Assembly (NCBI GenBank): GCA_019429385.1
Contig: JAHYIS010000013.1
Span: 1-53,018, forward strand
Length of the DNA stretch: 53,018 bases
Source: ANME-2 cluster archaeon
GTDB lineage: Archaea; Halobacteriota; Methanosarcinia; Methanosarcinales; Methanocomedenaceae
Direction of reading: 5' to 3'
Each line of letters opens with the position of its first letter. Position 1 is the stretch's first letter. Below, one piece after another: positions 4,334 to 38,330 of the stretch. A program made the translations under genes and the position numbers. Under the pieces are notes generated by a model, which did not search any database, was not told where the DNA came from, and saw nothing but the letters and a program-made list of their open reading frames with translations.

Positions 4334-7330
4334 CTACCTAATTTTTAAACTCGAGTTAATTTTAAGTTGAAGTTTGTATGATGAATGTAATTTGTCATTT
4401 TTTAAGAATGCCTTAATATAAGTATCACTTTCGATTTCATCAGGAAATGGAATTTTAACTTGCAGTGAACCAGTAAAAGCTTGTGCTGGTATTGAATGAA
4501 ACAATTTGACTGATGGCTTGAACATAGGAACATTTCCTACTGCTGAATAAATATCAATATCAGGCAAATTAAAAGATTCTTCCCCAGCTTCAAAGTAAAT
4601 TATTACATTGTTTTCTCCAAATCCAAATTTTTTCTTTGTCACTGAAATTGAATAGGTGATGACTTTTTTTGACTCATTTGCAAATAGATAATTTGTACCT
4701 GTAGAATAGTCTTTTTCCCCATCTCTTTTGAACTCTGCAAACACAGTAAAATAATAATTTTGTTGTTTTAGATCTTTAATAACAAGGACGCTATCAGCCC
4801 GATATTGTTTAATATTTATGTCTTCCCTTATCGATTGTATATCACCAATATCAACGGGATATTTGTCAAACCGATACAAAATAACAAATCCTGTTGCTTC
4901 TTTTGGTGAATCTATAAAAATATTAATATTATTGTTAGCCGCTACAATATTATTAATTTGTACAGATTCCCCCTTGCTTGCACGAGCAATAGCACCGATA
5001 ACGGCCGAATTCGATTTTACAACCACTGCTGTAATATATAATCGCCCATCATCTTTAAACTGGAATGTACCCGTGTTGCGTTCTGTTTTTGTTACAGCAA
5101 GTCTTCTCATTTTAGATTCAAGGATTGCCTGGGATACAATTTCTCCACACTTATAATCAGGTTTATTTGTTGAATAATATAACCGCACTTCTGAATTATC
5201 TGGATTTTCCCATGTTGCCTGGAATGTATTGTCTTGAACAGGCTTCACGCTCAAAATTTCAATTGCTTTCGGCGGTTTTGTTGGCATTCCAGAAATGTTA
5301 ATGCCATTGGTCATCTGTTTTTGACCGTTTATATTGTAAACCAGGCGCAATCGATAATTGTAATTCTCATCATTCTTCAAGCCACTGTCCAGGAAACCTT
5401 CTGAATTATTGCTATTAATTCGTTCTTCTTTACCACCGTCAGTAATTCTAAACAATTCGACAGTTGAACCGGAAGGAATAGAATCCCATTCCAACTGGAG
5501 CATTGCATCTCCAGGGGTAATTGTAACATTTGTTATTTCAAAAAGATTCACGTCAGGTTTTCGGGTGGATAATGGTTTTGAATATACACCAGCTCGTTCT
5601 GCAAATATTGCATAGTAATATCCAACGCCAGGCAGGATCTTGCTGTCGTTAATACTGCACACATTAACTCTTGCGACCAAATCTCCATCTGTATTGTTTA
5701 TCGGAATAGCATCTCTTTTTCGTACAATCGAATAATATACAGTACCTTCCGAGGTACTTTCATTCCAGCTAAGGACGTTGGTTTTTGTGTTTCCGTCAGT
5801 TGAAATTCTCAAATTGGTTACCATCTGAGGTGGGTACCTTAAGATCAACTCACGAATTCCAGGATAATCACAACAACTTTCATGTGCCTTCGTACAGTTT
5901 TCAATGATCTCTTTTTCATTGGTTGCTGACTGAGCTTTAGCTTTATCATAATAAGATTTTGCTGTTTCAATAGCTGTTGTTATTTCTGCTTCTAAGTCAG
6001 CCTCCTTGAATTCAGGGAATCTCTTTAGAATATCTGCATATTGTTTCTTCGCTTCATAATAGCGCTTTTCTTGAACAGCCTTCCTCATATTTTCAGCTGT
6101 ATCACCAATTCGCTGCTTAAACTCTTCCAGTTCTTCCCTCTTTGCTTTAACTTCACTACTACCAGGCCAGTATTTTTCAGCATCTTTCAAATGTGTTTCG
6201 GCAGTTTTAAATTCCATTGATTTGATGTATTGTTGAGCCAAGTTGCACAACGCCAACGCCCGATCTATATTTTCTAATTCAAAGCCACATTTGCACCATT
6301 TGATATTAGCATCATTTTCTGTACTGCATTTCGGGCATTTTATGACCAAATCTTTCTTACAGTTAAAACATTGTGTTCGCCCATCGGATACATCATTAAT
6401 TCTACCGCAGCTACAAACCTTTATATTTACATTATTTTCGTTTGCAGGATTATGATTGTATGCAATATTCTCAACTTTACAAAAGGAAATAAAAACATTT
6501 TTCGCTAATGTTCTATCTATAGTCAACTCAGTTAATTGGTCAATGAAAACATCTCCTTGTTTATCAGACAATTCTGAACCTGCGACTTTTGCAATTTCTT
6601 TTACGTAATCTAAAACACTTCTTCTTTTGCCCCATGCTAAATATTCGTCATAAATTCTTTTACTGTTTTCATCCTTAAAAGCCTGCACGCATGTCTCGCA
6701 TATTTTTTTACCAGCACTACTTGTATTGTTATTTTTGTAAAAGTCTTTTTTCTTCATTTCTTGCGCAAATTGCGTGAGCTTATCGCACGGTAGAGTATTC
6801 ATAATCGTAGTACCGGGATTCAAGAAATCGTAGAAATTATCCTTATTAAATGGCTGAAGATATGTCTTCATACCCTCATATATTTTTGCACCATGGGGTT
6901 TGGTTTTATAATATTCTTCATAAAATTTCTCAAAATCGACATTCTTTTGTCCAATTTTTATGCCAAGGGCAGCCATTCTTTTTTTGACTATATCAACAGA
7001 TACCTTTTTTTTAATTGCATATTTTTCGACAATGTCTTCGGCGATTTCTCCGCTTCCCCTACCAAGATTAGTAAGATCTTTATTTAACAAATCATATACA
7101 TCATTGCGAGCAGCCTCAGCTTGCTTTTTACGCTCGACAGGATCACTCATTATCCTTTTGATTTCGTTGAGCTTTCCATGATATTCCTTGTATAGTGAGC
7201 CTCTAAAGGAATCATTGAAATTAGTTGCCCAAAATTTGCGCTTTTCTTCAATTATTTGGTCTATAACAGCTTGATCCTCGACTGGAGGATCAAAATCTAA
7301 ATCTAATATCAAATACCAATTCTCATTCAC
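4334..7330 (-). CDS. J-domain-like / zinc-ribbon / TPR / FN3-repeat protein, 998 aa
   Basis: I prefer the GTG at 7328-7330, which follows a GAGGGTGAT ribosome binding site, over a TTG eight codons upstream. The N-terminus (NWYLILDL, then IDQIIEEKRKFW, then IMSDPVERKK) follows helices I, II and III-IV of a J domain, but the HPD loop is replaced by TNF-ND. A helical region follows, then a double zinc ribbon at about 306-348 (CSC, CFNC, CPKC, CKC). Next come helical TPR-like repeats at about 355-490, and then several fibronectin-III-like beta domains from about 500 to the C-terminus. There is no signal peptide or membrane segment, so the FN3 repeats are probably intracellular. With Hsp70 and GrpE-like genes upstream and GTPase/GAP1 genes downstream, it is a candidate adaptor connecting chaperone and GTPase modules. 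Domain names rest on pattern recognition. Confidence 0.6.
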   Translation of the reverse strand: MNENWYLILDLDFDPPVEDQAVIDQIIEEKRKFWATNFNDSFRGSLYKEYHGKLNEIKRIMSDPVERKKQAEAARNDVYDLLNKDLTNLGRGSGEIAEDIVEKYAIKKKVSVDIVKKRMAALGIKIGQKNVDFEKFYEEYYKTKPHGAKIYEGMKTYLQPFNKDNFYDFLNPGTTIMNTLPCDKLTQFAQEMKKKDFYKNNNTSSAGKKICETCVQAFKDENSKRIYDEYLAWGKRRSVLDYVKEIAKVAGSELSDKQGDVFIDQLTELTIDRTLAKNVFISFCKVENIAYNHNPANENNVNIKVCSCGRINDVSDGRTQCFNCKKDLVIKCPKCSTENDANIKWCKCGFELENIDRALALCNLAQQYIKSMEFKTAETHLKDAEKYWPGSSEVKAKREELEEFKQRIGDTAENMRKAVQEKRYYEAKKQYADILKRFPEFKEADLEAEITTAIETAKSYYDKAKAQSATNEKEIIENCTKAHESCCDYPGIRELILRYPPQMVTNLRISTDGNTKTNVLSWNESTSEGTVYYSIVRKRDAIPINNTDGDLVARVNVCSINDSKILPGVGYYYAIFAERAGVYSKPLSTRKPDVNLFEITNVTITPGDAMLQLEWDSIPSGSTVELFRITDGGKEERINSNNSEGFLDSGLKNDENYNYRLRLVYNINGQKQMTNGINISGMPTKPPKAIEILSVKPVQDNTFQATWENPDNSEVRLYYSTNKPDYKCGEIVSQAILESKMRRLAVTKTERNTGTFQFKDDGRLYITAVVVKSNSAVIGAIARASKGESVQINNIVAANNNINIFIDSPKEATGFVILYRFDKYPVDIGDIQSIREDINIKQYRADSVLVIKDLKQQNYYFTVFAEFKRDGEKDYSTGTNYLFANESKKVITYSISVTKKKFGFGENNVIIYFEAGEESFNLPDIDIYSAVGNVPMFKPSVKLFHSIPAQAFTGSLQVKIPFPDEIESDTYIKAFLKNDKLHSSYKLQLKINSSLKIR

Positions 7331-17565: not shown

Positions 17566-18918
17566 ATGCTGTTCGATGACAAAGATGTCACCGTGCTGGA
17601 TCTGACCCACGGCGGCATTCCCCTGGCGCAGCACATCGCAAAATATGCACACAGTGTTACAGCCGTTGATGTATATGGCACCACTGATGAGGGTGTCCTG
17701 GCCGGGCTCGAACGCTCTGGCATACATGTTATCAGGGAAACAGCTAATAATACTAACATTACTACAAAGCATAATACTGACCTGATAGTGGCTCCGGTGC
17801 ACCTTGACCCTGCATTCCTACCCGGTGCCGGTGGACATACTATTATCACGCACCACCAGGCAGTGGGGGAACTGCTATCCGGTCTTACCTCTAATACCCG
17901 TATTGTGGAAATAACAGGGACCGGTGCCAAGACCAGTACTGCAACACTTCTGGCAGACATGGCATCGCGCAACCTGTCCGTGGTCTCCCATACCAGCCGG
18001 GGAATGGAACACTGGATGAAGGGCGTGCCGACAAAGGTGCATCACGGCCTGAGCATAACCCCGGGCAGTATCCTTGAGGCACTGGAACATAGCACCGGTA
18101 TTCAAGCCGACCTGTACATCTTTGAAGTATCACTCGGAGGTACAGGAATGGCGGATATAGGCATCATCACCAGCCTTGATAACGAGTACACCATAGCAAA
18201 GGGCCGCAGTACGTCCACTGCAGCAAAACTGCAGATGGTCAATAAGGCAAAGCCGGGCAGCACCCTGCTTGTGAATGCCTCAGCAGGTCACTTAACCCCC
18301 CCTGAGAACGTGGATATCATTACCTTCAGTGATACTACGGATGCAGATGTGTACCTGGAGCGTTCCCCCGGGGGCATCTGGACCGTACATTCAAATCGCG
18401 GCGGAACCATCAGGTTTACCCCGAATTCCGGTTATGATGCGGGTGCCTATTCTACTGCTATTGTATGTGCAGTTGCCGCCGCCAGGCTCCTGCACGTGGA
18501 GGATGCAAAGATAGAATCCGCGCTGATGGATTTTGCAGGAGTGCACGGCAGGATGCGGGTCGTGGAATGGGCAGGCCGCAGGATGGTGGATAACTCCAAT
18601 TCAGGTATGACCATCAGGTCGGTTCGGCAAGCCCTGGATTATTCAAATGGCCTGGTTTCCAGTCATGACCGCAAGGTCCTTATCCTCGGGGAGGAAGCAA
18701 AACAGGTCTGCGAAGGACTTGACCCCACAGATGCCGCTCATTTTATTGACAATAGAGGGAACGAACTTGATACGATTATACTGGTTGGCGAGCGGATGCG
18801 AAACATTCAGGGCGGGAACGTCCGGACTGCCGCCAGCCTTGAAAGTGCCATCGAGATGGCTGAATCACTGACCAGCGAAAATGATATTATTATTTCATGC
18901 ATCAAATGCTTTAGATAA
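17566..18918 (+). CDS. cfbE: Coenzyme F430 synthetase CfbE (Mur ligase-like), 450 aa
   Basis: The last enzyme of F430 synthesis: it activates a carboxylate of 15,17(3)-seco-F430 with ATP and closes the six-membered carbocyclic ring. It is a MurD-like ligase. The P-loop is GTGAKTS (118-124), the central domain holds [17 protein letters not shown] and a conserved NEYT segment, and the C-terminal domain starts around [23 protein letters not shown]. The ending ISCIKCFR is characteristic to my memory of the family. It lies five bases after cfbA and 14 before cfbD. Confidence 0.92.
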
Positions 18919-18932
18919 AAGAGGAAATTACC

Positions 18933-20063
18933 ATGAGCCCTGTACCCTTAACCAAAGAACCCACCATTTTGCACCCCAGACCCAGTTCCATCGTGGCAGC
19001 TCTGTACACGTTGCGTGACCTTGACGTGGACGTGGTCATACTCCACGGCCCGCCCGGTTGCAGTTTCAAACATGCCAGGCTCCTGGAAGAGGATGGGCTG
19101 CGAGTGGTGACCACTGCCCTTGACGAATCAGGTTTCGTGTTCGGTGGCCATGAACAGCTGGTCGACCTGCTGAGGCGGGTCATTGAGATGTTCAACCCGA
19201 AACGGATAGGCATCGTGGGAACCTGTGCCAGCATGATAATCGGAGAAGAACTGCACGATGCAGTGCTTGAGGTAAATCCCGACGTGCCTGTTATCGAAGT
19301 GGAAGTACATGCAGGTTATCCCAACAATACCAAAGGTGTTATCATTACCCTGGAATCGGCACTTGCCGCCGGTATACTCAGCGAGGAGGAGTTCCAGCGC
19401 CAGAAGATACTGTTAAAGGAGGCAACCGAGGTCGAGAAACGGCACGGTGCTGCCAGCAAGGCATACCTGGAACCCAGCCGTGGCGATACCAAGTATACGG
19501 TAGCAAAGCGCATTATCCAGTTGCTCAAGGAAGGCAAGAAAGGTATCACCATCCTGAACGCCAAAAAGGAAACCGGGTACATGTTCGCTGATATCAATGT
19601 GGCAGTGAACCAGGCCGCCAGGGAACTGGGTTCGACATCAGAAATAATCAATATGGCGAACCTGGACGAGAACCTGGGCCTGGACAGGGTCAGGGACCAT
19701 GCCCGCAATATCAACCGCGACCTTAAGGAAATGGGTATTGAGATACATGAGGTCATAGGCGGGCTGGATGAATATCCCATCGCAGGTGAGACCGTGAACC
19801 GGCTGCTTGCCGGGAAATATCAGGGTTTTGATTTTGCCGTGATAACCGGCGTGCCCCATGCCATTCCCATGGACAACATGCAGGGTATGGAGGTCATCTC
19901 AGTGACCAATGGACCCAGGCAGGTGGTGCCGCTCAAGGAAATGGGACATGAACATGTCGTGGTGGAGATAGACCTGCATCCCAAGACCCTGGGTGTCAGC
20001 ACTATTATAGAATCCGAGTTCGGTGCCACGCTGCGCCAGCTGGTACGGGAGGAAAAAGAGTGA
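18933..20063 (+). CDS. cfbD: Ni-sirohydrochlorin a,c-diamide reductive cyclase, catalytic subunit CfbD, 376 aa
   Basis: A NifD-like homodimeric subunit that reduces Ni-sirohydrochlorin a,c-diamide by six electrons and forms the gamma-lactam ring, fed by CfbC. Cluster-ligand cysteines are in [10 protein letters not shown] (C43) and VGTCASM (C98). It is much shorter than true NifD (about 480-530 aa) and lacks FeMo-cofactor ligands, as expected for CfbD. It overlaps cfbC by four bases (GTGA), so the two subunits are translationally coupled. Oxygen-sensitive cytosolic enzyme. Confidence 0.94.
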
Positions 20064-20845
20064 AACAGATTGCCATTTATGGAAAGGGCGGTATCGGCAA
20101 GAGCAGTACCGCGTCAAATGTGGCTGCCGCCTGTGCTGATGAAGGATACAGGGTCACCATTATCGGCTGTGACCCCAAGAGCGATTCGTCGATCACCCTG
20201 CTGGGCGGTCACCGCATACCCACGGTCATGGAATTGATGCAGCAGGGTATGGAGATCACAGAGAATGAAGTGGTCTTTGAAGGGTACAAAGGTGTCAGGT
20301 GCGTGGAAGTGGGCGGGCCTGAACCAGGTATAGGCTGTGCGGGCAGGGGTATTATTGTAGCCATCAAGATGCTGCAAAATATATCCTCGGTGATGCAGGA
20401 CAGCGACCTTATCATCTACGACGTGCCCGGCGATATCGTATGCGGGGGGTTTGCTGCCCCTATTCGCAAGGGGCTGGTCAGCGAGACCTATGTGCTCACA
20501 TCAGGCGAATACATGCCCCTGTATGCAGCCAATAACATCTGCAAAGGATTTGCCAGGCTGGGCAATCCGCTCAACGGTGTCATATGTAACAGCCGCAATG
20601 CAGAGAATGAAGAGAATATTGTCAGGGCCTTTGCTGAAGAACTGGGCAGTGAACTGCTGGCCTTCATCCCAAAGGTGGACCTGGTCCAGACCTGTGAAAG
20701 GGCAGGATATTCTGTAATCGAGAAGGAGCCTGATAGTGACATTGCCGGAGTGTACCGCAAACTTGGACGGGCCATTATGGAGCGGGATGTTGCCTGTGAA
20801 CCAAAGCCACTGACTGATGAGCGGCTGAGGGAACTGACCGGTTAA
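20060..20845 (+). CDS. cfbC: Reductive cyclase iron protein CfbC (NifH-like), 261 aa
   Basis: ATP-dependent electron donor to CfbD, homologous to the nitrogenase iron protein. The P-loop is GKGGIGKS (8-15). The two cysteines that hold the shared [4Fe-4S] cluster between subunits are C93 (GIGCAGRG) and C128 (DIVCGG). Translation starts at the GTG at 20060 within the last codons of cfbD, after GGGAGGAAA. It is the last gene of the F430 cluster; cfbB, the a,c-diamide synthase, is not found here and must be elsewhere in the genome. Confidence 0.94.
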
Positions 20846-36330: not shown

Positions 36331-36408
36331 AATCTTCATTTAAATGGAGTGTAATTAATATTTGGAATAGTGACGTGGAACTATATCCTGGAAAATGGAG
36401 TGATACGT

Positions 36409-37209
36409 ATGCAGGGATATCCAAACACTGAAAATGATATTGTAGGAAAACGATACACCATCAGGGACAGGGTGGCACACCAGACCCACATGATAACATG
36501 TGTGTTATTGATCATTACCGGGCTTTACCTGGCTTTGCAGTTCAATGTCTGCACCCTGCAGGCATGGACTTTGATGTCGTATCAAAGCCTGCGTTTGATC
36601 CATGTCATTGCCGGCATTCTGTTCTTGCTGGTCAACTGGACACTGATACCCTTCAACCTGATTACAAGCGGCCACGTGCTGCAATACATTTTCAGCCCGA
36701 AAGATGCAGTCAGGCTCAAGCAGGCCATTGTGAGCTTAATAAAACGGGGAGAATATCCAAAATATACCATATACAACAAAACAACCGGACATTACGAAAA
36801 CAAACTCCATCCAGCCTATAAGCTCATGGTGATATTTGAAGGGATCGCCATTGTATTTATTGGAATATCAGGTATCATAATGGTTGACCTGAAATTCGGA
36901 GTTGTGGATTATAACATTTCAGCATGGAATAATTTCATGGCCTGGTTCGTTGGGGATATTATGGGTAGTGTGGCAATATTGATCGGTATGAACGGTATCG
37001 AGTTGATAAGGTCAATACACTTGTGGGCCACATACTGGTTCGTAATTGAACTTATAATCCACCTTGGATTTTTAGGAGTCGATCCAAGGATGAATAAATA
37101 TTTAAAAGCCCTGTTCATAACCGGAAATGAAACGATGGACGAGTACACAGAAATTGTCGAGGGTACCCACGCTGAACATAAGAAAAAGCCGCTGGTTGTG
37201 TTCAAATGA
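36409..37209 (+). CDS. Membrane cytochrome b (b561/hydrogenase-type), 266 aa
   Basis: I chose the ATG at 36409, which has GGAG eight bases upstream, over a GTG 13 codons earlier. Four membrane helices are predicted (about 28-46, 62-83, 137-160 and 195-235), with histidines placed for two b haems: AHQTH (24, 27), LIHVIAG, LHPAYK, IRSIHLW and LIIHLGF. This is the di-haem cytochrome b fold found in hydrogenases and quinol-linked oxidoreductases. It is followed 136 bases later by a multihaem cytochrome c gene, so it probably oxidises methanophenazine or another quinone and passes electrons outward. No hydrogenase or formate dehydrogenase gene is nearby. Confidence 0.85.
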   Translation: MQGYPNTENDIVGKRYTIRDRVAHQTHMITCVLLIITGLYLALQFNVCTLQAWTLMSYQSLRLIHVIAGILFLLVNWTLIPFNLITSGHVLQYIFSPKDAVRLKQAIVSLIKRGEYPKYTIYNKTTGHYENKLHPAYKLMVIFEGIAIVFIGISGIIMVDLKFGVVDYNISAWNNFMAWFVGDIMGSVAILIGMNGIELIRSIHLWATYWFVIELIIHLGFLGVDPRMNKYLKALFITGNETMDEYTEIVEGTHAEHKKKPLVVFK

Positions 37210-37345
37210 ACGTATGATCCGTTAAAACAAGCACCTGCGCACAATTATGATGTGATTAAATAGAAAACTAATAATAACAAAAGGTAACAGAGAATTAAAA
37301 AAATTGAAAACGTACCGAACATATTAATAATGAGGAGGATTTCAC

Positions 37346-38281
37346 TTGAAACTGAGTAATGTTTTGCTACTATTGATAGTAGCTTTTTCACTAATCGCCG
37401 TGGTCCAGGCAGAAGAACCACAGTATGAAACAGTAAGTAAAATGGCTGAGGACGTTGATTGCAGGGCAACCTGCCACAATCCCGACCCACACGTGATACA
37501 TGCAAACACGCCAGCCACATGCCAGCAATGTCACGGTGCAACATTGACCGACCGTCGGCCCGCGTGTACCAAATGCCATTCAGGAACCATCCATAATGTC
37601 CACATAAAAAAAGTACAGACTGAGGATTGTTCATTCTGCCATTCAGGGCTTGAGAACCTGCATCTGGAAATGATATCAGATACCCTGTGTTCCCATTGTC
37701 ATAAGGACCTGCTCGTTGTTCATGGCGGACCTGCTGAATCCTGTAAGAAGTGTCATGGGACAGCACCAGATATTGTTGCACCTGTTAAAGGAGAAGGTAT
37801 GACCGTCATATGTCAGAACTGCCATGTTTCGACAGATGTTGCAGCCCTTCATGGTGATTCCTCGAATCCGAGTTCATGCTACCGATGCCACAGGCCGGGT
37901 TCCACCGAAGTAGAATCTTCCAGTGAGATTCCACATTTTCTCCATATACCCCAGGTAGACTGTAACAAATGTCACCTGAACCAGGATACAGGTAAAATAT
38001 ACATACCGGTATGCACCCAATGCCACAAAGTGGATAAACTGCACGAATTTAAATCCATAGGTCTTAAAACACCAACTAATTCAAAATTGAGATGTGCAGT
38101 CTGTCATCCGATGATGAGTACTGATGATGGAGCTGGTAAGCCGGCAGGTACATCCACACCTACCCCATCCAAACCCACAGAAGCAACTGATGGTGGAAGT
38201 TCCGGAGTTCCGGGTTTTGGGATCGTAACGGCATTGACAGCGCTCAGCGTATTATATATCGTAAATAGAAACAGGGATTAA
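37346..38281 (+). CDS. Surface-anchored multihaem cytochrome c (10 CXXCH + 1 CX3CH), 311 aa
   Basis: The start is a TTG behind GAGGAGG. A signal peptide (1-22) is followed by ten CXXCH haem sites at residues 59, 74, 95, 115, 133, 156, 178, 206, 223 and 250, plus a CRATCH (CX3CH) at 39-44 that might hold an eleventh haem. A Thr/Pro/Ser-rich linker leads to a PGF motif at 289-291, a hydrophobic helix and a basic tail, the PGF-CTERM signal recognised by archaeosortase for surface attachment. It is downstream of the cytochrome b gene and closed by a terminator. The likely role is electron transfer outside the membrane, as in anaerobic methanotrophs. Electron acceptor unknown. Confidence 0.92.
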   Translation: MKLSNVLLLLIVAFSLIAVVQAEEPQYETVSKMAEDVDCRATCHNPDPHVIHANTPATCQQCHGATLTDRRPACTKCHSGTIHNVHIKKVQTEDCSFCHSGLENLHLEMISDTLCSHCHKDLLVVHGGPAESCKKCHGTAPDIVAPVKGEGMTVICQNCHVSTDVAALHGDSSNPSSCYRCHRPGSTEVESSSEIPHFLHIPQVDCNKCHLNQDTGKIYIPVCTQCHKVDKLHEFKSIGLKTPTNSKLRCAVCHPMMSTDDGAGKPAGTSTPTPSKPTEATDGGSSGVPGFGIVTALTALSVLYIVNRNRD

Positions 38282-38294
38282 ATATCCCATAAAA

Positions 38295-38330
38295 GGAAGA
38301 TAGTCCTGCTATCTTCCATTCTTTTTTTTG
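38295..38330 (+). terminator. Terminator after the multihaem cytochrome gene
   Basis: A perfect 9-bp stem, GGAAGATAG / CTATCTTCC (38295-38303 and 38309-38317), with a five-base loop, is followed by a T-run (38322-38329). Confidence 0.85.

Follow-up and report, generated by a model that had tools for sequence, protein, structure and literature searches.

A probable role for the Mco cytochrome pair of an ANME-2a archaeon in carrying electrons out of the membrane

Two neighboring genes in the genome of an ANME-2 cluster archaeon (assembly GCA_019429385.1) encode a membrane cytochrome b and a secreted multiheme cytochrome c. They are the already described Mco pair of ANME-2a, not a new kind of system, and gene context, both here and in Chadwick et al. 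2022 (PMC9012536), makes it very probable that the pair carries electrons out of the membrane. That paper named Mco and proposed, from gene context, that it is a methanophenazine-cytochrome c oxidoreductase: in ANME-2a and ANME-2b a VhtC-related cytochrome b, whose transcripts are high, has downstream of it not vhtAG but a cytochrome c carrying 7 to 11 heme motifs, and in ANME-2c the cytochrome c is located elsewhere (PMC9012536). It was the only literature found on McoA or the ANME VhtC-like protein; "McoB" is the label used here for the Mco cytochrome c and is absent from its main text. The preliminary description of this DNA had put forward an electron outlet from methanophenazine to cytochromes, an idea that our analysis supports and that matches the published proposal, hence one already described.

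The window, meaning the whole stretch of DNA that was analyzed (53,018 nucleotides, contig C13, JAHYIS010000013.1), contains the following features of the locus.

36409..37209, forward strand: McoA, a VhtC-like di-heme cytochrome b (PF01292) with candidate heme ligands H24/H27, H65, H204, and H218
36538..36555, forward strand: QFNVCT codons (residues 44–49), part of an ANME-only insert after helix 1, predicted to lie on the outer face
37333..37338, forward strand: AGGAGG ribosome-binding site ahead of the McoB TTG start, invariant in 11 relatives
37346..38281, forward strand: McoB, with a signal peptide, 11 heme-c sites (CX3CH at residue 39, then ten CXXCH), and a PGF-CTERM anchor
38207..38281, forward strand: codons of the PGF-CTERM tripartite tail (VPGFG, hydrophobic helix, RNRD) and stop
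38295..38317, forward strand: terminator-like hairpin, a 10-bp stem and then a T run

McoA has 266 amino acids from the ATG at 36409, with an alternative GTG start possible at 36370. McoB has 311 amino acids, and its TTG start is well supported because both the TTG and the AGGAGG are invariant in the 11 relatives. From the 136-bp spacing of the two genes, co-transcription is predicted to be likely. The order of a di-heme membrane cytochrome b, a secreted multiheme cytochrome c, and a terminator is as the preliminary description had given it. Genes for a molybdopterin-binding domain protein, DUF1786, PHP, and POR proteins surround the pair; vhtAG is not alongside, and the earlier claim that no hydrogenase genes accompany the pair holds at the locus. 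Elsewhere in the window (17566–20845), genes read from sequence as cfbE/cfbD/cfbC-like (coenzyme F430 synthesis) fit a methane-metabolizing host.

The host genome (2.4 Mb in 70 contigs, rated 100% complete) encodes methyl-coenzyme M reductase (mcrA). Its genus also holds HMMV-459A3 and its family HR1, listed respectively as ANME-2a "Ca. Methanocomedens" and ANME-2b "Ca. Methanomarinus" (Chadwick et al. 2022, PMC9012536); the genus shared with HMMV-459A3 places the host in ANME-2a. The genome encodes archaeosortase A (C3:88725; TIGR04125, 246.5 bits against a cut-off of 75), for which the preliminary description had advised a search, the methanophenazine-linked HdrED (an hdrED gene pair), and nine matches to Cytochrom_C_asm (cytochrome c maturation). 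A profile search of the genome found no NiFe hydrogenase over cut-off. A weak match on contig C16 was rejected as a complex I 49-kDa-like protein and not an uptake hydrogenase; this sole weak match of the genome lies in a complex I-like cluster (L100:198–9883) with several antiporter-like subunits, a 30/49-kDa fusion, and a small-subunit-like protein.

The pair is strictly conserved among close relatives. McoA is found in 16 of the 17 genomes of the host family, the remaining genome being 57% complete, and McoB is adjacent in 15 of the 15 whose contig is long enough (in the 16th the contig ends), so homologous pairs of the kind anticipated earlier do exist in ANME genomes. Every adjacent copy in the family has 11 heme sites and a PGF tail. 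The present locus thus shares with published Mco its arrangement (VhtC-like cytochrome b, then multiheme cytochrome c, no hydrogenase genes), its genus (that of HMMV-459A3), and its family; it differs in that it comes from a further species, that all family copies tested have eleven sites, and that it has one CX3CH site, which is absent from the main text of PMC9012536.

McoA is also encoded by 15 of the 17 genomes of the ANME-2c family (f3, which holds E20 and HMMV-459B1), or 31 genomes in two families overall. At the ANME-2c loci no multiheme cytochrome was found in the flanking sequence examined, which reached up to 5 kb on each side. At one of them (L082:6120–7331), McoA abuts a long gene that a domain scan reads as a fusion of an aconitase C-terminal domain and a UbiE/COQ5-like methyltransferase; the long gene abutting McoA at another (L096:8434–9669) looks similar. 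This fusion could bear on methanophenazine synthesis. Methanogen VhtC homologs adjoin NiFe hydrogenase genes, and the NiFe hydrogenase large subunit (E ≤ 1e-30) was detected in a single one of the 17 host-family genomes (G022) and nowhere among the ANME-2c genomes.

McoA matches PF01292 (Ni_hydr_CYTB) above cut-off (E = 1.1e-10), and scores 26.5 bits against the hydrogenase cytochrome b model TIGR02125, for which the cut-off is 121.5. The candidate heme ligands (H24 or H27, H65, H204, and H218) do not vary among 41 McoA and VhtC sequences; their assignment rests on this invariance and on general knowledge of the family, as no literature on the HydC heme ligands was found. The structure model of McoA (pLDDT 79.9) has as its best PDB fold matches the b subunit of E. 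coli formate dehydrogenase-N (gamma, 1KQF) and the cytochrome b of hydrogenase-1 (4GD3), at a Foldseek probability of 1.00 with weak E-values (best 3.1e-3) and about 16–18% identity; the partners of these two proteins are an iron-sulfur subunit and a hydrogenase.

A close counterpart is VhtC of the methanophenazine-reducing hydrogenase Vht/Vho (VhtGAC) of Methanosarcina, to which McoA is homologous (about 33–44% identity, same invariant histidines). McoA differs from VhtC in lacking vhtGA neighbors, in an extra outer insert containing QFNxC, in a shorter loop after helix 2, and in its multiheme cytochrome partner. In the tree, McoA of ANME-2a/2b (support 98/96), McoA of ANME-2c (99/100), and VhtC (91/83) form three separate groups; with moderate support McoA appears as sister to the methanogen VhtC group and outside hydrogenase-linked VhtC, although the root and the exact sister relation are weak because the outgroup branch is very long. 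A grouping with hydrogenase subunits only, which the preliminary description had named as counting against the outlet, is not what the tree shows, and nothing else that it had listed as speaking against the outlet proved to be the case. The outgroup, a second PF01292 cytochrome b of the host genome that is far from McoA, was used solely in this role; it lies on contig C34 a few genes from a multiheme cytochrome with 13 motifs (L099:761–1630 and 6050–6733).

The QFNxC motif in the insert after helix 1 is present in 26 of 26 ANME-2 McoA sequences and in none of 15 VhtC sequences. The insert loop has no lysine or arginine and the next loop has eight, so by the positive-inside rule the insert is predicted to lie on the outer face. 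In known complexes the hydrogenase docks at the outer face. The insert is therefore predicted to be part of a new McoA interface with the cytochrome c.

McoB contains the ten CXXCH motifs and the one CX3CH motif (CRATCH, residue 39) of the preliminary description, and all eleven sites align in register across 28 homologs from four families; sequence conservation of this kind is no chance result. At the first site, in the same place of the alignment, CX3CH occurs in 10 of the 28 sequences and CXXCH in 18, and because the two interchange there, CX3CH very probably binds heme. The earlier term "decaheme" is thus right for the CXXCH motifs but falls short of the likely total, the CX3CH motif being almost certainly a real, eleventh heme site. 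A pattern of CXXCH pairs at fixed spacing is too narrow for counting cytochromes.

Exactly 22 histidine columns are invariant in the 28 sequences, half of them inside the motifs and the other eleven elsewhere (residues 49, 52, 83, 86, 106, 117, 126, 169, 197, 200, and 233 of McoB); the latter supply one possible distal ligand per heme. With 22 histidines, each of the eleven hemes could have two histidine ligands, the pattern to be expected of a bis-histidine electron wire that has no open catalytic heme. An AlphaFold2 model of McoB was discarded (pLDDT 37.5), and comparison of its sequence with the PDB gave only weak matches of the CctA type. The proposed PGF-CTERM anchor stands in its tripartite form, with a Pro-Gly that is invariant in 28 of 28 homologs followed by a hydrophobic helix and a basic end, but its scores are below the curated cut-offs (TIGR04126, 17.7 against 24.5 bits; PF18204, 13.2 against 18.8). 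The Rnf-linked MmcA of Methanosarcina acetivorans is likewise a multiheme cytochrome implicated in outward electron passage (PMC9012536; PMC6703419); its gene context, Rnf, is unlike that of McoB, a comparison drawn from the literature.

These features suggest a path for electrons. HdrDE and the oxidation of F420H2 would load methanophenazine, and reduced methanophenazine would give electrons to McoA inside the membrane. The electrons would travel over the two b hemes of McoA to the outer side of the membrane and pass on to McoB, which would be held at the membrane by a lipid link made by archaeosortase. From the eleven bis-histidine hemes of McoB they may pass to other cytochromes (S-layer cytochromes, OmcZ-like proteins) and on to a partner bacterium or a mineral. 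Electron flow, partner contact, and the contact between McoA and McoB are all predicted.

McoB-type cytochromes extend beyond the pair. Across the order, 63 of 186 genomes encode relatives, spread over f1, f3, f4, and two genera of f5. Where f4 and f5 genomes carry one, McoA is missing, with the exception of a single f4 genome that has a genuine Vht hydrogenase set; this indicates that this type of cytochrome is independent of McoA. From the published distribution, we take f4 to be probably Methanoperedenaceae and f5/g27 to be probably ANME-3. At the f4 loci L072, L073, L074, and L076, the McoB-type cytochrome adjoins genes read from sequence as hemL-, hemC-, uroporphyrinogen methyltransferase-, and hemD-like. 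The host itself has a second copy (C11:21984, 43% identical), flanked on one side by a molybdopterin oxidoreductase/ferredoxin/NrfD cluster and on the other by an NrfD/ferredoxin/triheme cytochrome cluster (L065:3299–12709, about 17298–26708 of C11); in another genome of the genus (L066) the McoB-type cytochrome and the second of these clusters keep the same order. The small cytochromes with several paralogs that are described as a group widespread among ANME (PMC9012536) may be the McoB family.

The neighboring genes might form no functional unit, with McoA feeding another acceptor and McoB serving as a general membrane-anchored heme hub fed by several oxidoreductases. The presence of McoB relatives in families without the cytochrome b, the position of the second copy between NrfD-type clusters, the separation of the two genes in ANME-2c, and a 136-bp gap that could hold a promoter all fit such an arrangement. 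We nevertheless consider it unlikely, given the strict adjacency in all 15 testable family genomes, the separate clade formed by McoA-linked McoB (100/98), and the outer insert peculiar to ANME McoA, which fits a new outer partner.

The relatives without McoA and the second copy do suggest that an McoB-type cytochrome may serve more than one membrane oxidoreductase. It is possible, and we propose it tentatively, that McoB is a general ANME outer-face adaptor that lineages or loci have joined to different membrane oxidoreductases (McoA here, NrfD-type at C11), the QFNxC insert being the docking feature that swaps hydrogenase for cytochrome. The description of the locus as a minimal path gives an incomplete picture, since the host genome holds other candidate outlets.

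Flow in the opposite direction, with McoB accepting electrons from the exterior and McoA reducing methanophenazine (VhtC does so with electrons derived from hydrogen), would be in keeping with the sister position of McoA in the tree and with the reducing direction in which VhtC works (PMC9012536). We regard it as improbable for a host that is a methane oxidizer by lineage and has no NiFe hydrogenase over cut-off. ANME metabolism needs electron export, and export is the direction that this host would require. Least probable is that McoA, which does resemble hydrogenase b subunits, is an orphan left by hydrogenase gene loss and only incidentally paired with McoB, since all its candidate heme ligands and the ANME-specific insert are conserved, it persists in 31 genomes of two families, and its transcript levels in the literature are high (PMC9012536).

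Outward transfer through the Mco pair is accordingly the reading we prefer. The export of electrons by anaerobic methanotrophs governs much of the removal of methane in sea sediments, and in ANME-2a and ANME-2b Mco is a leading candidate for the first step outward. The eleven conserved distal histidines, the exchange of CX3CH and CXXCH, and the ANME-only outer insert provide concrete residues at which its predicted role can be tested.
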